From an uncultured Oscillospiraceae bacterium (GTDB lineage Bacteria; Bacillota; Clostridia; Oscillospirales; Oscillospiraceae): DNA of 49,423 nucleotides. The stretch is from positions 1 through 49,423 of the forward strand of contig CANQMW010000020.1 of the NCBI GenBank assembly GCA_947625045.1, given 5' to 3'. A program made the position numbers and the translations under genes. The notes under the pieces are model-generated. The model did no database searches, had not been told where the DNA came from, and was given only the letters and a program-made list of their open reading frames with translations. Below, piece by piece: positions 542-8,574 of this stretch (positions are counted from its first letter, which is position 1; every line of letters starts with the position of its first letter).

Positions 542-3037
542 TTAGCCCTTATGGCTCAGGCCGTCGGCCCAAAGGCCGGTGGCGGCGTTGTAGTCGCCCC
601 AGTTCTCGGTCCAGGTGCACTGGCCGTTCTTACCGCCGTGGGCGGTATTGAACCAGCCCATCCCGGCCTCCGGCCCCAGCCACTGCCAGCCGGTGAGCAT
701 CCGACCGATGCAGCCGTCCGCGTTGCTGGGCTGGAGGAAGTACCAGCCGGTGCCGTTGTTGTTTTCGATGTACTGAAGACCGGTGGCCAGCTTGCCGTCG
801 GCGCCCACATAGTACCAGTAGCCCCACATGGAGGCAGCGGCCTCGTTGGCCCAGTAGTTGGCCTTGGGCTCACCGTTCACAAAGTAGTAGTAATCGCCGG
901 TCTCGTAGTCATAGCTCCAGCCGGTGCCGCCGTTGGTCTTGGGCGGATCCACAGGCACGGGCACAGGCGAGGGCGCGGGCGTGACGCCCGGTCCCGGCGT
1001 GGGTGTGGGTTCGGGGCTGGGCGAGGTACCGGGCGTGGGGCTGGGACTGGGCGCAGACGAACCGCCGCCGCCATAGCCGCCGGTGCCGGTGTCATAGGGC
1101 GAACGCCACTTCTCAATCGGCGTCGGCGAGGGCTCTTTCAGAAGCGCTATCGTCACTTCATCCACGCCGTCCGGTATCCGTAAGGTATATCTTTTCCACG
1201 ACGCCCACTTCTCAACGTACTCCATCTGCAGACCTTCTACATACAGATGCGTTCCTTCGTATTCATCGGCAAAGATACGATCCCCTCTGCCAAGCATGGC
1301 AACCGAACCGTCACGTACCATGCCATAATTATAGAGCATGGCGATCTGGCTATCGTGATGACGCTCATCTTCGCTTGAAATATGGAATGTTATCGGACGG
1401 CGATGAAACACTTCAAGGACCGCATGATTCGATTCAACGCTGGATATAGAAAAGCCAAAGTCATCAATACTGGATGTCGCCCACCGGGTGATTTCGCCCC
1501 CATACAGAGCGAAATCGTATTGAGACTGACGGGCCTCTTCTGTGAGAGGAACATAATAGATCATACGGTCGATCAGGACGCTGTCTCCATCTTTCAGCTC
1601 CCTCTTTTCATCCCCTTCAAGCGTATAGAAGGAAAACTGTCCAGTGTCCCCGGCAAAGGACAGTTTTATTTTCTGCGCCGGTTCTGTTTTGATTTCAACT
1701 GTCCCCGCTTTTATGGCGGCCTCTTCATCAATAATCAGATCATAATCATTGTGGGGACCTCTTACTTCATACAAATCACTGTCACTAACCATCAGGCCAT
1801 CATCCTTCAGGTTAAAATATATTATCCCACCGGTATCATATTCATAAGCTCCAGAACCAGACTTAATCTCATACATGCTGTCAGCATGCTCAGTTATATA
1901 TCCAAAACGGCGCGCAGATATCTTGCTCTCATCGAACAGAACCGTATAAAGGGGCTCGGCCTCCGTTACATTAAACTCTACTTTTTCGGCACCCTCTACT
2001 ACTTTAAACCTATAATGGGCGTAGGGACCGTCGGGGTAATTGTAAACCGCATAAGGCGGGCCGCTGGGTTCATATTGTCCGTATAGTTCCGCACCAGACA
2101 CCACCTCAAGCGCATATCCTCTCTTGATGCGCATCTCAAAAACCTCTTCAGGATAAAAGGCCTTGGGCACATCTTTTAAGAGCCCTTCGCTTTCATCGTA
2201 GTCCGTACCGTTACGCTTAAATACAACGGGGACCTGATCACGCATCGTGATCTTTACAGTCATTCTCCGCATTTCTATCAGAGGGAAAAAACTATAACGT
2301 GCTGGGTAAGAGAATTTGAATTCTTTTCCTCCGCCGCTGATTTCCAACACCACACCGGCGTTCTGCGGTTGAAATACAACATACGCCTTCCCTGGGAGGA
2401 AGAATTCAATCTTCTCCTTGAGGTACGGTGAAACGTCGTCTATCGGCTCGCCGTCGCCGTCAACATAGTATATCTCCTCCGACACCGTCGGCATTCCGCC
2501 ATTCAAAAGCTGAATGGTGACTGGGGCATTTTTGGGTGTCAATAGAGCAAAGCATACAAATTCAAGACGTTTTTCCGATGTCTCTTCAATCAGATTATAC
2601 TCATATTCCCAAGAAAGACCATTTTTAATACCACTATAGTCACCAGTATAATATGCACCGTCCAGATAAATCTTATATAATATCTCGCCGGAGCCATCGT
2701 CGCTGGAAACAATCTTGTGGACTATCTGCCGGATATCCTCCACGGGCCCGGATATGACAAACTGAAATACCTGTCCCGTGTCCGCCGTCACGGAATATAT
2801 CCCATCTTCCGGCTCCGACACCGCCAAAGGCTCCACAGGCTCATTCGTGTACCCCGACACGGCAATTTCCTCAGGAACATTCTCCACCGGAGCTATTGGC
2901 TCTTCAAGGGGCTCGGGCTCCTCCACCGGCGCAACAGGCCCCTCGGCCTCGAACACGTCCTCCGCGGCGAACGCGGGAACGCCGAGGCCCAGGGCCATCA
3001 CGAACACCAGGAACAAACTCAATGCGCGCTTTTTCAT
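542..3037 (-). CDS. Secreted surface protein with C-terminal cell-wall-binding repeats
   Basis: 831 residues. The ATG at 3037 is chosen because it begins a clear signal peptide (MKKRALSLFLVFVMALGLG, cleavage near AFAA/ED) and GGAGAGAAGAGG lies just upstream. The frame is open further upstream, but that stretch overlaps the leader. After the signal comes a Glu/Pro-rich linker (about 25-80), roughly 550 residues I do not recognise, and a Gly/Ser then Pro-rich linker (PSPSPTPGTSPSPEPTPTP). The last ~130 residues carry aromatic repeats such as GDYYYFVNGEPKANYW and GWYFLQP, typical of choline-binding-like cell-wall repeats. The protein probably sits non-covalently on the envelope. The C-terminal module nearly matches that of the protein at 12142-14601. 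Transcription is expected from the leader at 3038-3309. Confidence 0.85.
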   Translation of the reverse strand: MKKRALSLFLVFVMALGLGVPAFAAEDVFEAEGPVAPVEEPEPLEEPIAPVENVPEEIAVSGYTNEPVEPLAVSEPEDGIYSVTADTGQVFQFVISGPVEDIRQIVHKIVSSDDGSGEILYKIYLDGAYYTGDYSGIKNGLSWEYEYNLIEETSEKRLEFVCFALLTPKNAPVTIQLLNGGMPTVSEEIYYVDGDGEPIDDVSPYLKEKIEFFLPGKAYVVFQPQNAGVVLEISGGGKEFKFSYPARYSFFPLIEMRRMTVKITMRDQVPVVFKRNGTDYDESEGLLKDVPKAFYPEEVFEMRIKRGYALEVVSGAELYGQYEPSGPPYAVYNYPDGPYAHYRFKVVEGAEKVEFNVTEAEPLYTVLFDESKISARRFGYITEHADSMYEIKSGSGAYEYDTGGIIYFNLKDDGLMVSDSDLYEVRGPHNDYDLIIDEEAAIKAGTVEIKTEPAQKIKLSFAGDTGQFSFYTLEGDEKRELKDGDSVLIDRMIYYVPLTEEARQSQYDFALYGGEITRWATSSIDDFGFSISSVESNHAVLEVFHRRPITFHISSEDERHHDSQIAMLYNYGMVRDGSVAMLGRGDRIFADEYEGTHLYVEGLQMEYVEKWASWKRYTLRIPDGVDEVTIALLKEPSPTPIEKWRSPYDTGTGGYGGGGSSAPSPSPTPGTSPSPEPTPTPGPGVTPAPSPVPVPVDPPKTNGGTGWSYDYETGDYYYFVNGEPKANYWANEAAASMWGYWYYVGADGKLATGLQYIENNNGTGWYFLQPSNADGCIGRMLTGWQWLGPEAGMGWFNTAHGGKNGQCTWTENWGDYNAATGLWADGLSHKG

Positions 3038-3309
3038 GCTCCATCCCTCTTCTCTCCGTATTTCCCGGCAGTACCGGCCCGCGGTATGACCCGCGGGCTT
3101 TCCCGCCGAGACAACAAAAAGCGGTGCAGGAAGCATCCTACACCGCAAAGGTTCTACATCACAGCCTGCTATACGGGCCCCCTTGTAAAAAACAGGGGGA
3201 GCGGGTATAATGAGGCGGGCGCAGTCTACTGCTGTGTGGGAGGGCTGATCTCCTGCATAGGGGCTTGGGGTGCTGGAACCACCCCAAGTCCTGCCTTTGG
3301 TTGTCTCGC
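3038..3309 (-). promoter_or_regulatory. Structured 5' leader, copy 1 (candidate regulatory RNA)
   Basis: Minus-strand leader of the surface gene. It opens with CGAGACAAC (complement of 3300-3308), which pairs perfectly with GTTGTCTCG (complement of 3107-3115) some 190 nt later. Within it are a CTTGGGGTG/CACCCCAAG stem (3264-3288), a CACACAGC/GCTGTG pairing and an intrinsic terminator (3116-3146: GCGGTGTAGGA/TCCTGCACCGC, then TTTTT). About 70 further bases lead to the ATG. A near copy sits at 7944-8224 ahead of another surface gene. I match it to no riboswitch class I know. On the plus strand of the same DNA, TTGTAA-N17-TATAAT (3183-3211) could drive an opposing transcript. Confidence 0.6.
3116..3146 (-). 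terminator. Intrinsic terminator inside leader copy 1
   Basis: The plus-strand hairpin at 3121-3146 is preceded by AAAAA at 3116-3120, so on the minus strand it is an 11-bp GC-rich stem followed by five Ts. It lies upstream of the coding region and would attenuate transcription unless it is bypassed. Confidence 0.75.
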
Positions 3310-3315
3310 AGGGAT

Positions 3316-3344
3316 ATTATATCGCGTTATCCTCTTGTGCGCAA
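3316..3344 (-). promoter_or_regulatory. Sigma-A-type promoter of leader copy 1
   Basis: On the minus strand TTGCGC (3339-3344), a 17-bp spacer and TATAAT (3316-3321). The -35 box lies in an inverted repeat built on CCCCCTTG/CAAGAGG. The same boxes and spacing occur at 8231-8259. Confidence 0.75.
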
Positions 3345-3408
3345 GGGGGTATTTCTATCAGAGCTACGAGAGGTTCTCTCCCTCCGTCGCGGCTGACGCC
3401 GCGCCACC

Positions 3409-3434
3409 TCCCTCGTCAGAGGGAGGCTTTTTAT
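3409..3434. repeat. CCTCCCTC/GAGGGAGG hairpin
   Basis: CCTCCCTC, loop GTCA, GAGGGAGG, then CTTTTT. A related hairpin ends the region upstream of leader copy 2 (8276-8296). The rest of the gap up to the sigma gene (3435-3576) shows no gene. Confidence 0.6.
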
Positions 3435-3576
3435 ATGCCAGCCCGACGGGCGGTGAGAACCGGCAGTGCCCCGCATGCGGTTGGTGAGCGAAGCGAACTT
3501 TAGCAGGAGGGGCCCTGCCGGGCTCAGCCGCCTTTGTACCATGTCACATCAAACGCCCTTTCCGCGATATTCACAG

Positions 3577-3600: not shown

Positions 3601-4161
3601 ATGACCGAGGAGAGGGCTTTGGCCCTGCTGAAAGAGAGAGACCCGGCGGCCCTGGACTGGTTCGTCCGGCGCTATACGGCCTACGTCAGCACCGTGATAT
3701 GGAACGTCATCGGCGCTTACCGCCCCCGCCAGGACGCGGAGGAGCTGACGGCAGATGTGTTTCTGGCCCTGTGGCAGAGCGGCGGCCGGCCCCAGGCCGG
3801 GAAGGTCCGGGGGTACCTGGGCGCCATCGCCCGGCACAAGGCCGTGAGCTGCCTGCGGGCCCGGGGCGTGGAGCTGGGGACCGAGGAGGATATGCTGGCT
3901 CTCGCCGTTCCCGGCCCGGAGGGGGCCGTGGAGGAACGGGAGCTTTCCCGCCTCGTGAAGGAGGCGGTGGAGAGCCTGGAGCCGCCGGACCGGGAGATAT
4001 TCCTGCGCTTTTACTACTACTGCCAGAGCGCCGGGGACATCGCCCAAATGCTGGACATGACCCCTGCCGCGGTGCGCAAGCGCCTGGAGCGGGGCCGGGA
4101 GAAGCTGAAACGCTATTTCGAGGAAAGGGGACTGACCCATGAGCTATACGACATTGTATGA
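3601..4161 (+). CDS. ECF-type RNA polymerase sigma factor
   Basis: 186 residues, with the ATG preceded by AAGGAGGG at good spacing. Region 2 spans about 18-65 (DWFVRRYTAYVSTVIWNVIG and ELTADVFLALWQ). Region 4 spans about 120-175 (LEPPDREIFLRFYY and the helix-turn-helix DIAQMLDMTPAAVRKRLERG). There is no region 3, as usual for ECF factors. It should direct RNA polymerase to a small regulon, probably cell-envelope genes. It overlaps the membrane protein at 4139 by 23 bases, the usual sigma/anti-sigma arrangement. I see no convincing ECF-type GGAAC...CGT promoter upstream. The two surface genes on either side have sigma-A-like promoters, so they are not obvious direct targets. Confidence 0.9.
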   Translation: MTEERALALLKERDPAALDWFVRRYTAYVSTVIWNVIGAYRPRQDAEELTADVFLALWQSGGRPQAGKVRGYLGAIARHKAVSCLRARGVELGTEEDMLALAVPGPEGAVEERELSRLVKEAVESLEPPDREIFLRFYYYCQSAGDIAQMLDMTPAAVRKRLERGREKLKRYFEERGLTHELYDIV

Positions 4162-5851
4162 CCTGATGGACCACTACCGGGAAGACGAGCTGGACCTGCC
4201 CGACGCCCGCGTCACCGACGCGGACCGGGTGAGCCGGCTGGTCCATGAGCGGCTGCGGCCCGCCGCCGTGGGCGGCCATGCCGCCCCCCGCCGGAGGCGG
4301 GGCCGCCGGGCGCTCATCGCCGCCGCGGCGGCGGTGATGGCCATAGTGCTGGGCGTGACCGCCTACGCGGTGTACCAGGCCAGCGTGAAGGACTATATCA
4401 TCCAGCCCAGCCCCGCCATCGAGACGGGCACGGAGCCCGCCCCGGCGCCGGATGCGGAGGCCGAGCCCGTGCAGGAGCAGGCCAGCCTCTCCCTGGTGGG
4501 CTATCAGGGCACGCCGGAGTACGAGGCCTACGCGGAGTGGTCCGCCTGGCAGGAGGCGAATCGGGACCTGGACCGCTTTATCGAGATGGGCGTGGACGAC
4601 AGCTACTATGAGACCCCGGAGAATTACGCCCACCTCTACGCCGCGCCCTTCAGGGACCAGGCGGAGAAGCTGGACGAGATCATGGAAAAGTACGGCCTGA
4701 CGCCCCTTGAGGAGCGGTATTTCATCTACTCTCCTGAGGACGTGTACGACTACCTGGGCACGGCGTCCTTCCTGCCGGCCGGTTCCCGCGGCGGCGGCTA
4801 TTTCTACGACGATGGGACCTTCAAGCTGGAGGCCATCGACTTCGGCACGGACAGCCTGAGCGGCACCCTGTACGCGTCGGTCAAGGGCTCCTTCTCCATG
4901 ATCGCCGGCTTTGTCCCCCAGGACTATGAGGAGTGGAGCTACACCACCGCCTCCGGCCAGACCCTGGACCTGGTCATGGGCACGGACCGCTCCCTGATGC
5001 TCCTGGAGACAGAGGGGGCCTACATCTACCTGGGCGTGAACATGGGCACCGAGCCCGTGTACCCCGACCAGCCCCAGAGCAAGGACGAATTCCGCGCCGG
5101 CTACGAGGAGATCGTCGCGTCGGAAGACGCCACGGACCAGGGAAAGGCCTGGGCGGCCCAGATCATAGAGGACATCGACAAGGCCTATCAGGACTATCTG
5201 GACGCGAACTTCGGCGGCGTGGACCTGGACGAGCCCATCCGGCCGGCCTATACGAAGCGGGACCTGGAGGCCCTGGCGGATACCGTCGGCTTCGACGTGC
5301 TGGCCCAGCGCTTTGCCGGGCCCGTGGACCGGGAGAAGGCCCAGGAAAATTACTACGCCTTCGTCCAGCGGCTGTCCGCTACGGACACCCATAACCGCGC
5401 GGCGGACGCGGACACAGCCATCGCCGACCTGGGCGACTACGCCATCGCGGCCCTGCCCGAGGGCTACGCCCTGTACGTCGTCGACGGCCAGACGGCGGAC
5501 GACTCCATAACGGGGGACGGCTATAACTACGTGACATGCCGGTATCAGGGCCCCACGGGCGGCGAGATCACCCTGACCTGGTCGGATGGGCTGGAGATGA
5601 GCGAGGTATCGCCTCTGTCCTTCTCCCTCGGCGAGAACGGGGAGCCGGTGGACGCCGTCTACCCGGAGGAGGAGCAGGTGACCGTGGGCGGCCACGACGC
5701 CCGGTACCTGGAGGGCGACGAGGGCAGGCGCCAGGAGCTGGAGTGGACAGACCCGGACCTGGGCCTTCGGTTCCAGGTAGTCCGCTCCTGGGGCGCCCAG
5801 ATGACCAAAGACGAGTTCATCGCCATGGCGGAGAGCGTCGCGGCGCAGTAA
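4139..5851 (+). CDS. Membrane-anchored probable anti-sigma factor with large extracytoplasmic domain
   Basis: 570 residues. A cytosolic N-terminus of about 55 residues ends in an Arg-rich stop (APRRRRGRR). One transmembrane helix follows (about 58-78, ALIAAAAAVMAIVLGVTAYA), then about 490 acidic residues predicted outside. The start overlaps the sigma gene by 23 bases, so translation is probably coupled. Topology and position point to an anti-sigma factor that holds the sigma at the membrane and senses an envelope signal. I see no HxxxCxxC zinc motif in the N-terminus. The outer domain is far larger than in most anti-sigma factors and I do not recognise it. It ends just before repeat copy B. 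Confidence 0.7.
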   Translation: MSYTTLYDLMDHYREDELDLPDARVTDADRVSRLVHERLRPAAVGGHAAPRRRRGRRALIAAAAAVMAIVLGVTAYAVYQASVKDYIIQPSPAIETGTEPAPAPDAEAEPVQEQASLSLVGYQGTPEYEAYAEWSAWQEANRDLDRFIEMGVDDSYYETPENYAHLYAAPFRDQAEKLDEIMEKYGLTPLEERYFIYSPEDVYDYLGTASFLPAGSRGGGYFYDDGTFKLEAIDFGTDSLSGTLYASVKGSFSMIAGFVPQDYEEWSYTTASGQTLDLVMGTDRSLMLLETEGAYIYLGVNMGTEPVYPDQPQSKDEFRAGYEEIVASEDATDQGKAWAAQIIEDIDKAYQDYLDANFGGVDLDEPIRPAYTKRDLEALADTVGFDVLAQRFAGPVDREKAQENYYAFVQRLSATDTHNRAADADTAIADLGDYAIAALPEGYALYVVDGQTADDSITGDGYNYVTCRYQGPTGGEITLTWSDGLEMSEVSPLSFSLGENGEPVDAVYPEEEQVTVGGHDARYLEGDEGRRQELEWTDPDLGLRFQVVRSWGAQMTKDEFIAMAESVAAQ

Positions 5852-5863
5852 AGGAGACACAAG

Positions 5864-6016
5864 GAAAGACCTGCCGTTTGGCAGGTCTTTCTCTTTATGT
5901 AGGCCCCCTTGTGCAAAGGGGGCTGGCTCCGGCGTTAGCCGGAGTCTGAGGGATTGTCTGACAACCCCTCCGCCTCGCTGTCGCTCGGCACCTCCCCTTG
6001 CACAGGGGAGGCTTTC
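5864..6016. repeat. Intergenic hairpin repeat, copy B
   Basis: Same layout as copy A. A 12-bp perfect stem GAAAGACCTGCC/GGCAGGTCTTTC with loop GTTT (5864-5891), then GGCCCCCTT/AAAGGGGGC, the CTGAGGGATTGTC segment, and CCTCCCCT/AGGGGAGG ending near 6012. It separates the convergent anti-sigma and surface genes. Confidence 0.8.
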
Positions 6017-7943
6017 ACCAACCCCTATGGGCCAGGCCGTCGCTCCACAGACCCGTGGCGGCGTTGTAGCTGCCCCAGCCCTGGGTGTAGGTGCACATGC
6101 CCTGGGAACCATACTTGGCGCTGAATTCGCCGTAACCTGCGTCGGTATAAGTATACAGCCAGCCGGTGAGCATCTTGCCGATCTCGCCCCGGTCGTTGGT
6201 GACCTGGAGCATGTACCAGGCCTTGCCGCCCTTCAGATCGTCCAGATACTGCATGCCCGTCAAGAGTTTGCCGTCCGCGTCGGCATAGTACCAGTTGTTA
6301 GCCCACTTGGATGCCCCGTCGGCAAAGCCGACCCAATAGTCGCCCACGCGACGGTTGTTTTTGAAGTAGTAATAATCCCCGGTCTCCGGCACATACCGCC
6401 AGCCGGTGCCGCCCGCAGGGGGCTTGATGCTCTCCAAATCGACCGCCGGTCCCGGCGTGGCCGTGGGCGTGGGCGTCACTGTCGGCTTTGGCGTAGCGGT
6501 GGGCTTCGGGGTAGCTGTCGGCTTTGGCGTGGCCGTAGGCTTTGGCGTGGCCGTAGGCTTGGGCGTAGCGGTGGGCTTAGGAGTAGCCGTTGGCTTGGGT
6601 GTTGCCGTGGGCTCCGGGGTAGGCGTAGGCAGGGGAGCGGGTACGCCTCCAAAAGCGTTTTCTCTTATCTCGGGTACGGTATCGCCTTTGAATACTACAT
6701 TTTCAAGATCATAGCAATGGTAGAACGCATATGCGTATATTACGTCTATTTCCCCGGAAAACACGACCTTGGTGATGTGGGCGTAGTCCCCATTACTTCT
6801 ATCTCTGCCGGTCGCAAAAAGATAGGCCGGAATTCGCGTCACCCGGTCACCAAAGGTGACCGTCAGAGAATCAACATTAGCGCCAGCATTATAGAAGACA
6901 GAATAGTTTGCACAATAATCATATTTGCTGTTATAGTTGCAATCCTTTACTCCTCCGTTGATTGTGATGGAACTCAGGTTCGTGCAGTCTTTGAACGCAC
7001 CATCGCCCAGAGTAATATTGGCTGTTGGCAGGGTGATGGATGAAAGCATCGTGCATCCGGAAAAACCTCTGTAGCCAATTGACAAAAAACCATAATTCCC
7101 AGACATCTCTGCATTTGTGGCCACATCAAAAGACCGAAGTGCCGTATTCTCCGCAAATGCGGATTCCCCAATGCTTCCCAACTGGGTGAGCGTGTCAAAG
7201 TTCGCGCTGGCCAGGTCGTAACAACGGTAAAATGCGTAATCGCCTATTTTTGTTACGTTTTGCCCTATGACCAGCTTGGTGATATGAGCGCAGACACCAT
7301 CACTCTTAGCGTTTCCGGTGGAAAAGAGGTAAGACGGAATTGCTTTGACGTTATTGCCAAAGGTCACTGTCAGAGAATCCGCATTAGCGCCAGCATTATA
7401 GAAGACAGAATAGTTCGCGCAATAATCATACTTGCTGTTATAGCTGCAATCCCCAATATCGTCGTTGATCGTGATGGAACTCAGGTTCGTGCAGTTCTTG
7501 AATGCTTTGTCTCCCAGTTTCGTGATCCCTTCCGGTATCACCAGGGTGGTAATGGAGGTGCAGTTTTCAAACGCACTGGCTTCAACGGTACGGATCTTGT
7601 ACGTCGAGCCTTCATAGGTCATGGTAGTCGGCACCGTCACGCTGGACGCGGAGCCGGTATACCTCAGAATAGACGCAACGCCGTTTTCTATCTTATACGT
7701 GTAATCATCTGAACTGTATTCAGCGATCACTTCCGGCTCATCAGCGGGCGTCTCCGCGGCCTCCTCCGGATCGTCCGCCGCCACGGGCACGGGCTCTTCC
7801 TCTTCCTCCTCTACCGGGGCGGCGGGGGCTGTCTCCTCCTGGGCGGGCGCCTCGGCCTGGAACTCCTCCGCCGCCAGGGCGGGGACGATGAGGCCGAGAG
7901 CCATCACCAGCGCCAGGAGCATAGTCAAAACGCGCTTTTTCAT
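6015..7943 (-). CDS. Secreted BspA-type leucine-rich-repeat protein with cell-wall-binding module
   Basis: 642 residues from the ATG at 7943, chosen for its signal peptide (MKKRVLTMLLALVMALGLIV, cleavage near ALAA/EE) and the ribosome site AAGGAAAGG. Order: acidic Pro/Glu linker (about 25-65), then LRR_5 repeats (about 90-420) such as ITTLVIPEGITKLGDKAFKN and LSSITINDDIGD. Two LRR blocks are near duplicates of each other, each containing CNYNSKYDYCANYSVFYNAG or a close variant. A PTATPKP tandem linker (about 435-490) and a cell-wall-binding module follow. BspA-like LRR proteins usually mediate surface contact; the ligand is unknown. It shares its leader with the gene at 542-3037. Confidence 0.85.
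   Translation of the reverse strand: MKKRVLTMLLALVMALGLIVPALAAEEFQAEAPAQEETAPAAPVEEEEEEPVPVAADDPEEAAETPADEPEVIAEYSSDDYTYKIENGVASILRYTGSASSVTVPTTMTYEGSTYKIRTVEASAFENCTSITTLVIPEGITKLGDKAFKNCTNLSSITINDDIGDCSYNSKYDYCANYSVFYNAGANADSLTVTFGNNVKAIPSYLFSTGNAKSDGVCAHITKLVIGQNVTKIGDYAFYRCYDLASANFDTLTQLGSIGESAFAENTALRSFDVATNAEMSGNYGFLSIGYRGFSGCTMLSSITLPTANITLGDGAFKDCTNLSSITINGGVKDCNYNSKYDYCANYSVFYNAGANVDSLTVTFGDRVTRIPAYLFATGRDRSNGDYAHITKVVFSGEIDVIYAYAFYHCYDLENVVFKGDTVPEIRENAFGGVPAPLPTPTPEPTATPKPTATPKPTATPKPTATPKPTATPKPTATPKPTATPKPTVTPTPTATPGPAVDLESIKPPAGGTGWRYVPETGDYYYFKNNRRVGDYWVGFADGASKWANNWYYADADGKLLTGMQYLDDLKGGKAWYMLQVTNDRGEIGKMLTGWLYTYTDAGYGEFSAKYGSQGMCTYTQGWGSYNAATGLWSDGLAHRGW
6460..6640 (-). repeat. 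18-bp tandem repeats coding for (TATPKP)n
   Basis: Seven consecutive TATPKP hexapeptides flanked by PTPTPEP and PTVTPTPTATPGP, encoded by 18-bp units that differ slightly at synonymous sites. They form the spacer between the LRR and wall-binding parts. Unit number could change by slippage without breaking the frame. Confidence 0.85.
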
Positions 7944-8224
7944 GTTGTGCCTTTCCTTTCTTTTGTGTTTCGACAGGAGAGGCCCGGGACCGGGTGATGC
8001 CGGCCCCATGGCCTTCCCGCCGAGACAACAAAAAGCGGTGCAGGAACTCGTCCTACACCGCGGAAGGGCTACAACACAGCCTGCTATACCCATCCCACTT
8101 GTAAAAAATAAGGGGAGCGGGTATAATGAGGCGGGCGCAGTCTACTGCTGTGTGGGAGGGGCATTCTCCTGCATAGGGCTACGGGGTGTTGGCGCACCCC
8201 GTGGCCTGCCTTTGGTTGTCTCGC
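7944..8224 (-). promoter_or_regulatory. Structured 5' leader, copy 2 (candidate regulatory RNA)
   Basis: Near copy of 3038-3309. It has the same first bases, the same CGAGACAAC/GTTGTCTCG long-range pair (8215-8223 with 8021-8029) and the same terminator position (8030-8061). The stem at 8181-8202 reads ACGGGGTG/CACCCCGT on the plus strand where copy 1 has TTGGGGTG/CACCCCAA: two base pairs changed together, with pairing kept. The hairpin ATACCC...GGGTAT is stronger here than in copy 1. As in copy 1, the plus strand carries TTGTAA-N17-TATAAT (8099-8127). Confidence 0.6.
8030..8061 (-). terminator. Intrinsic terminator inside leader copy 2
   Basis: Hairpin GCGGTGTAGGA/TCCTGCACCGC on the minus strand (8035-8061), followed by a T run (plus-strand A run 8030-8034), about 90 bases before the start codon. 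Confidence 0.75.
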
Positions 8225-8230
8225 AAAGAT

Positions 8231-8259
8231 ATTATATCGCGTTATCCCCTTGTGCGCAA
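8231..8259 (-). promoter_or_regulatory. Sigma-A-type promoter of leader copy 2
   Basis: TTGCGC (8254-8259), 17-bp spacer, TATAAT (8231-8236) on the minus strand, within the same inverted-repeat context (CCCCTTG/CAAGGGG) as copy 1. Confidence 0.75.
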
Positions 8260-8308: not shown

Positions 8309-8563
8309 AGACCTGCCACGCGGCAGGTCTCTTTATGTAGGCTCCCTTGTGCAAAGGGAGCTGTCGAGCGCCTTGGGGCCCCCGCAAAAGCCCAGCGAAG
8401 CGGGTTTCGCGGGGAGAGGAGGAGCCGTGGGCCATTCGAGCTTTGCCGCTTGCGGCAAAGGGAGACCTGGCATCGCGAGCTCCGACGAGACTGAGGGATT
8501 GTCGTTTACAACCCCTCCACCGCACTTCGTGCGGTCCCCCTCCCCTTGCACAGGGGAGGCTTT
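8309..8563. repeat. Intergenic hairpin repeat, copy C, interrupted by a 115-bp GC-rich insert
   Basis: The left hairpin AGACCTGCC/GGCAGGTCT (8309-8330), the GCTCCCTT/AAAGGGAGC hairpin, the CTGAGGGATTGTC segment (8491 on) and the terminal CCTCCCCT/AGGGGAGG hairpin match copies A and B. Between the second hairpin and CTGAGGG lies an extra block (8375-8490) absent from A and B. That block resembles 44159-44270 upstream of mobC. Confidence 0.75.
8375..8490. ncRNA. Candidate structured RNA or repeat with GGGGAGAGGAGGAGC core, copy 1
   Basis: GGGGCCCCC, then a stem-loop whose loop reads AGCGAAGC, the 15-mer GGGGAGAGGAGGAGC (8411-8425), then the perfect hairpin CTTTGCCGC/GCGGCAAAG (8441-8460). The same order of parts occurs at 44159-44270. 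The strand is undecided; the purine core reads on the plus strand in both copies. It may be a mobile repeat rather than a functional RNA. Confidence 0.45.
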
Positions 8564-8574
8564 GGCCAAGCCCC

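Follow-up and report, generated by a model that had tools for sequence, protein, structure and literature searches.

Two surface protein genes in the window (the whole stretch of DNA analyzed here, 49,423 nt from an uncultured Oscillospiraceae bacterium) share a promoter and leader, while the proteins that they encode are mostly different. This raises the question of what the leader does. We propose that it is, quite probably, a countertranscript-driven transcriptional attenuator, in which an antisense RNA of the leader would cause termination before the secreted-protein gene is reached.

A shared leader precedes genes for secreted proteins

The leaders of the genes at 542-3037 and 6015-7943 are 86% identical over ∼250 bases, in agreement with the first-pass annotation of this DNA, which had noted a shared promoter and leader. 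Each sense leader is ∼190 nt long, with a minus-strand promoter at its start, an intrinsic terminator at its end, and the gene behind (Table 1). The parts that the annotation had listed, namely, a 9-bp long-range pair, a GC stem, and a terminator with a T run, are all present in the sequence. The duplication also extends beyond what chance would give, with five copies of the element in the genome of origin and 98 matches in a nucleotide search of 40 genomes (18 with matches, the genome of origin included, all in the genus), from which 30 loci were kept.

Table 1. Coordinates of the genes and leader features in the window
Feature	Position	Strand	Basis or remarks
Gene 1 (putatively controlled)	542..3037	-	831-aa protein, N-terminal signal peptide, without Pfam hit at E 0.001
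Gene 2 (putatively controlled)	6015..7943	-	642-aa secreted protein, BspA-type leucine-rich repeats (LRR_5)
Sense promoter -35 (TTGCGC), copy 1	3339..3344	-	Sequence and family pattern; stricter promoter scan misses the site
Sense promoter -10 (TATAAT), copy 1	3316..3321	-	17-bp spacer; predicted start ∼3309
Sense promoter, copy 2 (TTGCGC-17-TATAAT)	8231..8259	-	Sequence
P1 5′ strand CGAGACAAC of the 9-bp long-range pair	3300..3308	-	Pairs with 3115-3107
P1 3′ strand GTTGTCTCG	3107..3115	-	Just past the U run
P6, intrinsic terminator of the sense leader, copy 1	3121..3146	-	U run 3120-3116
Sense terminator P6, copy 2	8035..8061	-	Counterpart of copy 1 P6
Putative pre-emptor/antisense target motif CTCCCACACAGC	3231..3242	-	Pairing and covariation analyses
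Antisense promoter TTGTAA-17-TATAAT, copy 1	3183..3211	+	Promoter scan, sole promoter-like site in 2990-3450; conserved
Antisense promoter TTGTAA-17-TATAAT, copy 2	8099..8127	+	Promoter scan
Predicted antisense RNA, copy 1	3218..3299	+	Model R1, 90.6 bits (copy 1 in training set); -41.9 kcal/mol, z -3.0
Predicted antisense RNA, copy 2	8134..8214	+	Model R1, 86.8 bits; fold of 8132-8214, z -4.3
Antisense hairpins, copy 1	H2 3221-3232; H3 3233-3259; H4 3260-3292	+	Predicted
H4 and tail GCCTTTGGTT, copy 1	3260..3292	+	Reads as intrinsic terminator for the antisense RNA
Hypervariable loop of antisense hairpin H3	3243..3249	+	Loop comparison
Variable loop of antisense hairpin H4	3273..3279	+	Loop comparison

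We examined the genes downstream of 133 distinct elements (identical cores removed), of which 123 had a usable open reading frame (ORF). By a simple signal-peptide rule of our own making, 108 of the 123 ORFs passed, compared with 43 of 390 background ORFs (the other ORFs in loci L040 to L154). The 15 that failed include some evidently mischosen starts and others that are real exceptions. Pfam searches with ten downstream proteins (the two of the window and eight others) identified BspA-type leucine-rich repeats in five, transglutaminase-like domains in two, and choline-binding repeats and S-layer homology in one each; two had no hit. One copy in the genome of origin (L009:3131-3729, minus strand) has no evident secreted protein next to it; a HicA/HicB-like pair, recognized by eye, lies further downstream.

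Similarity between paralogues reaches into the coding sequence. Among the window copies and a third one (L007), the signal-peptide segments (first 30 codons) are 77 to 92% identical, compared with 43 to 47% in the remaining coding sequence that was compared, and the leader plus signal peptide seems, from these identities, to be an exchangeable cassette. The surface genes are also flanked by similar palindromic intergenic repeats (CCCCCTTGTGCAAAGGGGG ... CCCCTTGCACAGGGGAGGC, at 429-541, 5903-6013, and 8340-8565 of the window). Between the two copies, at 3601-5851 on the plus strand, lie what appear by eye to be a sigma-factor-like gene and a partner gene, in the same direction as the copy 1 antisense RNA.

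A second promoter and a conserved fold on the opposite strand

The first-pass annotation, while right about the leader parts, had missed a consensus promoter that lies inside the leader on the opposite strand. In an independent promoter scan, this antisense promoter was the only promoter-like site in either window leader; the sense promoter, with its −35 element TTGCGC, was not listed. Across the 133 elements, the antisense −10 box is TATAAT in 119. In 131 elements, this box has at most one mismatch, and 128 of them have a TTG at a spacing of exactly 17 bp. The rest of the −35 element varies as promoters do (TTGTAA, TTGAAA, TTGTGT, and TTGCGA). The sense −10 box, scored in 132 elements, matches TATAAT fully in 85. 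In 29 covariance model hits, mostly diverged, a strict rule found the antisense promoter in 22, compared with 4.5% of shuffles. The two promoters stand face to face, with predicted starts ∼90 bp apart and −10 boxes ∼105 bp apart.

The RNA predicted from this promoter is ∼80 nt long, starts with GGCGCAG, and is antisense to the 5′ half of the leader. Over 83 nonredundant sequences, 97.7% of the cells in its structure are paired, 14 of the 29 pairs show two-sided changes, and none of 500 shuffles scored as high on any of five measures. To determine strandedness, we counted G-U pairs and mismatches in these 83 relatives in either orientation. There were 377 G-U cells in the antisense orientation versus 12 in the sense orientation (127 versus 5 for hairpin H4 alone) and 55 mismatches versus 420. 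As both counts favor the antisense orientation, this fold is kept in the antisense RNA. The fold includes the GC stem (CTTGGGG/CCCCAAG and CACGGGG/CCCCGTA in copies 1 and 2, respectively). The compensatory change that had been reported in this stem (TT/AA to AC/GT) is thus present, but the stem is hairpin H4 of the plus-strand antisense RNA.

In the alignment of the 83 sequences, hairpin H3 is without two-sided changes, as the pattern used to collect most of these loci leaves H3 no room to vary; the conservation of H3 is in part a product of this selection. The TATGCAGGAG half of the H3-fixing motif is nevertheless present in each of the 30 loci that the nucleotide search contributed, and the H3 sequences of the diverged copies identified by the covariance model are different. 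At one locus (L155:5474-5566; E = 0.003), a weak hit of the antisense model falls on the sense strand, downstream of the element. This likeness between the antisense RNA and the 3′ half of the sense leader points to a possible inverted duplication.

By contrast, P1 (the long-range pair) and P6 (the terminator), the other two structures that the annotation had described, are conserved as structures of the sense RNA. P6 of copy 1 reads GCGGTGTAGGA-TGCT-TCCTGCACCGC-TTTTT (3146-3121, minus strand), and a search for P6 followed by a U run succeeded in 124 of the 127 full-length elements (the remaining 6 of the 133 were too short and were left out). The three misses are a degenerate hairpin (L020), a hairpin whose U run fails the rule (L131), and a different sequence in that place (L141). 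P6 has 229 sense G-U pairs versus 16 A-C (112 elements), and P1 has 199 versus 32 (109 elements); 97 of the 109 have a P1 run of 8 bp or more. Part of P1 is located past the terminator, and the strong covariation of this helix falls outside what an attenuator model accounts for; P1 may close the read-through leader, shield its 5′ end, or act as a competitor of the antisense tail. In many copies, a GC-rich hairpin (CTCGGCGG...CTGCCGGG) follows P1 ahead of the ribosome-binding site (3110-3050 of the window, minus strand, and counterparts), and by eye its lower stem overlaps the P1 3′ strand.

A leader motif complementary to the terminator arm

A countertranscript-driven attenuator would be expected to have a leader segment, the pre-emptor, that competes for the 5′ arm of the terminator. 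The antisense RNA covers a conserved leader motif, CUCCYACACAGC, that is complementary to the 5′ arm of P6. When leaders were cut just before the 3′ arm, the predicted partners of the 5′ arm fell almost only on this motif. Over 112 nonredundant elements, the expected number of arm-motif pairs was 6.36, versus 2.62 with shuffled arms and 1.76 with reversed arms, and at least five pairs were expected in 77 elements, versus 13 and 10, respectively. Shuffling the motif instead of the arm still left 4.43 expected pairs.

In the diverged loci, duplexes between a locus's own target and arm were more stable than swapped ones (−11.84 versus −10.27 kcal/mol; P = 0.0003 by permutation). This P value is optimistic, as some of the 25 loci scored are interrelated and one (L155) is a close relative rather than diverged. 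From the 29 hits, one was dropped as too short (L182) and three because no terminator was found (L189, L190, and L176); three for which the terminator search chose evidently wrong hairpins (L187, L165, and L185) were kept. Both sides have changed together in several loci, for example, in CACTCAACAC with GTGTTGAGTG (L168), in ACTCAGCAC with GTGTTGAGT (L166; one G-U), and in CTCATAC with GTATGAG (L183). In most close relatives, the pre-emptor helix is broken by mismatches, and its longest contiguous run was not better in the sense orientation (4.98 with sense G-U versus 6.60 with A-C allowed). Two other pairings were rejected over the 112 elements: our first proposal, CCCUAUGC with GUGUAGGG, gave 0.33 expected pairs versus 0.31 when shuffled, and ACACAGC with a downstream GCUGUGU, which looked good by eye, gave 0.86 versus 0.54, with at least four pairs in only 6 elements.

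A proposed model for attenuation by the antisense RNA

The model rests on features derived by computation, namely, the two promoters, the two structures with the strand of each, the terminator, the complementarity and covariation of the pre-emptor, the link to secreted proteins, and the variability of the loops. Their layout is that of known attenuators, with a terminator between promoter and gene, an antisense promoter in the leader upstream of the terminator, a predicted folded antisense RNA over the leader's 5′ half, and a competing pre-emptor covered by that RNA, the pre-emptor helix being interrupted in the main set.

In the proposed sequence of events, the gene promoter would produce a nascent leader whose CUCCYACACAGC motif captures the terminator's 5′ arm by base pairing as the arm emerges. 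This would delay the terminator, so that RNA polymerase reads into the secreted-protein gene. The second promoter, facing the first, would give rise to the folded antisense RNA, which would pair with the leader, most likely first at its two variable loops, and cover CUCCYACACAGC. The terminator arm would then be freed, transcription would stop, and the gene would be off. We infer that the RNA is produced and that its binding brings about termination. In equilibrium computations, the probability of the terminator was 0.85 without and 0.95 with the antisense RNA; as the terminator is favored either way, control would have to be kinetic, exerted during transcription.

According to these predictions, P6 forms whether the antisense RNA is bound or not, which would also suit a plain constitutive attenuator, with the antisense RNA acting in cis in another way, by promoter interference or by duplex formation and RNase III cleavage. 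The facing promoters fit such a reading as well, an arrangement of this type having been reported to interfere in icsA/RnaG. Interference, however, requires neither a conserved antisense fold, nor hairpins maintained through G-U pairs, nor a matched pre-emptor, and we regard this explanation as distinctly unlikely.

The first-pass annotation had proposed a candidate regulatory RNA of a new kind. The element is indeed conserved, covarying, multicopy, and located before secreted and wall protein genes, but the evidence indicates antisense-driven attenuation rather than a riboswitch-like sense leader. A sense-strand regulatory leader (a riboswitch or a protein-binding attenuator), with the antisense promoter incidental or secondary, would explain why P1 and P6 are conserved and strand specific in the sense RNA, why P1 covaries, and why the sense leader folds well (z = −5.3). 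We nevertheless consider it very unlikely, as it is on the opposite strand that the most conserved of the structured blocks is maintained, the antisense promoter is as well conserved as the sense promoter, and the loops of the antisense block are what varies most. A riboswitch would show a sense aptamer fold with a conserved unpaired core; here, the conserved fold is antisense and its loops are variable.

Recognition loops differ between most copies

If the antisense RNA recognizes its leader through the loops, their sequences would set which copies interact. Antisense loops of compatible plasmids differ, giving each plasmid its own address. We compared the hypervariable H3 loop in 136 of the 138 copies found in the genus with an exact pattern, from 23 genomes (the two omitted are single copies in G010 and G011; G012/CANQJZ, G006/CANPXW, and G021/CANQSF each count as one genome). 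The loop differs in 491 of the 496 within-genome pairs. The five pairs that share it come from three copies in G015, whose surroundings are only 72 to 73% identical, and from duplicate pairs in G341 and G342, the former identical in loops and H4. Outside the genus, a pair in G176 also has a common H3 loop.

When surroundings were 85 to 90% identical, loop identity was 0.48 in the 44 within-genome pairs and 0.54 in the 178 between-genome pairs, with no identical loops among the former and 17 among the latter; unrelated pairs had a loop identity of 0.45. With all backgrounds of at least 0.85, identical loops occurred in 2 of 65 pairs within and 35 of 261 between genomes, and the difference in loop identity (0.52 versus 0.58) was not significant (P = 0.145 by label permutation; P = 0.29 at backgrounds of at least 0.80). 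In view of these values and of the 5 sharing pairs among 496, we gave up the proposal that same-genome copies never have a loop in common and are selected to differ. Our earlier counts (0 of 94 pairs, P = 0.008; 0 of 340) had been made with identical cores removed, many copies missing, and the same genomes counted as different.

One recent duplicate pair, L037/L048, was chosen for its very similar surroundings; it is identical at 392 of 410 positions in six flanks versus 25 of 37 in H4 and the H3 loop (P = 5 × 10−7). The corresponding values are 14 of 21 in the P1 5′ strand, 25 of 26 in two conserved motifs, and 159 of 193 in the remaining coding sequence. Four H4 loop sequences co-occur with their exact reverse complements in other copies, with 0.08 expected from shuffles, as if the H4 loop flips inside its own stem.

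Most copies thus appear to have an address of their own; the test for selection to differ was not significant. Since the loops differ in most copies, the main target of each antisense RNA should be its own leader, loop-sharing copies excepted, and we infer that most of the switches are independent. A compact antisense RNA with its own promoter and a terminator-like end could instead act mainly in trans, on other mRNAs or copies, with the overlap of its own leader secondary, and the few loop-sharing copies within one genome could cross-act. In the elements examined, however, the RNA and the leader that it overlaps belong to one and the same gene, with little change in spacing between elements, and the RNA's partner region covaries with that leader's own terminator arm, which makes a mainly trans-acting role highly improbable.

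Distribution of the family

Searches with the exact pattern found the 138 copies in 25 of 35 genus genomes and copies in 16 of 300 family genomes (in 9 of 106 genera); in GTDB contigs, at least 115 stretches matched. The antisense covariance model had hits in 26 of the 35 genus genomes, with up to 15 copies (G337 had a single weak match), in 28 of 295 order genomes (families f1, f2, f7, f13, f17, and f23), and in 9 of 391 class genomes, where the two f36 hits look doubtful. Among the class-level hits, L189 and L190 have neither the terminator nor a suitable gene and may be unrelated. Cultured carriers include Flintibacter muris DSM 110149 (L083), Colidextribacter sp. OB.20 (L103), and Flavonifractor sp. 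An10 (L132).

The comparison with Rfam that the annotation had called for gave no family match at gathering level in the window or in 16 further loci; at E values up to 10, region 2990-3450 had only weak matches far below gathering scores, none of them plausible. Its alternative outcome, a repeat without covariation and unlinked to genes, did not materialize either: among relatives, many matches precede secreted or wall protein genes and covary.

Copy 1 had no blastn match in 72,556 plasmid or 50,697 phage records. One match in viral contigs adjoins a signal-peptide gene like that of L092 and is probably host DNA. Copies in the genus lie on contigs of up to 265 kb, and diverged hits also occur in one-contig genomes of 2.2 and 4.8 Mb. 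These results, and the mostly secreted-protein genes behind the copies, speak against a plasmid location upstream of rep or transfer genes, although single contigs may be plasmid.

That the family is a plain mobile or intergenic repeat without function, as many copies per genome and the recombinase-like or transposase-like genes near some diverged relatives might suggest, is scarcely credible given its fixed position and orientation before mostly signal-peptide genes, its strand-specific covariation, and the lack of plasmid and phage matches to copy 1. The diverged loci L199 to L204 lie near genes that, named from their translations, are recombinase-, TnpB-, or integrase-like, a hint of possible mobile-element ancestry.

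A literature search, limited to the text accessible to it, found no earlier description of the family. The main text of a survey of candidate structured RNAs in human microbiomes (PMC8040213) does not contain the terms secreted, surface, attenuat, signal peptide, or Oscillibacter; the family may be an unnamed entry in its supplement.

Relation to known antisense attenuators

The closest parallels to the attenuator proposed here come from plasmids, as described in the portions of the sources cited. In staphylococcal plasmids, repC of pT181 is under an attenuator (Novick 1989) in which, as long as no antisense RNA is bound, the 5′-proximal arm of the terminator-like stem-loop is paired with a pre-emptor in the leader (PMC5703833). 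The two systems have in common a countertranscript to an untranslated leader, a terminator-like stem-loop before the gene, and a pre-emptor. However, pT181 controls a plasmid rep gene and copy number, whereas the present family lies on chromosomal contigs, in up to 15 copies per genome, mostly before secreted-protein genes, and has no Rfam match. In pIP501, the antisense RNA (RNAIII) likewise induces a terminator-like structure in the repR leader, and pIP501-like staphylococcal PriCT_1 plasmids have a ∼320-nt leader with an antisense promoter midway and inverted repeats with poly-T; pIP501 differs from the present elements in being plasmid-borne, and its control includes a Cop repressor (PMC5703833).

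The pCF10 prgQ/Anti-Q system resembles the one proposed here in its branched antisense RNA, polyuridine tract, facing promoter, and favored termination of the nascent leader, but it belongs to a conjugative plasmid with a pheromone-sensing repressor and a promoter 220 bp away (PMC7117660, PMC3161895). In Shigella, icsA/RnaG has face-to-face promoters 120 nt apart and a surface-protein gene behind the terminator, and RnaG binds through a kissing complex and forms the terminator; in contrast to the present family, this is a single gene on a Gram-negative virulence plasmid, with a 450-nt antisense RNA and relief by VirF (PMC5394118). According to one source, rep genes, icsA, and an iron operon of Vibrio are controlled in this way (PMC8383071). 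Engineered orthogonal attenuators are man-made (PMC3753616), whereas the copies described here are natural, with diverged loops. We would place the family with pT181, pIP501, and pCF10 by mechanism, not by Rfam, location, or target genes; the best reading is a multicopy chromosomal form of a plasmid-type control mechanism.

Implications for surface protein expression

The antisense attenuators described in the cited text are plasmid-borne (pT181, pIP501, pCF10, and icsA/RnaG), whereas this family is widespread and chromosomal, with up to 15 copies per genome before genes for secreted and wall proteins. As a tentative and rather doubtful extension, each secreted protein of gut Oscillospiraceae and related Clostridia might have an antisense attenuator of its own, the attenuators forming chromosomal arrays that are largely orthogonal and possibly bistable, with loops that diverge fast after duplication and surface proteins that are switched independently. 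If this is true, each surface protein would be turned on or off on its own, giving combinatorial heterogeneity of the cell surface without DNA inversion, while loop-sharing copies would be switched together. The family would also be a natural library of attenuators with diverse loops, and it makes testable the question of whether antisense RNA serves cell-by-cell surface diversification in commensals.
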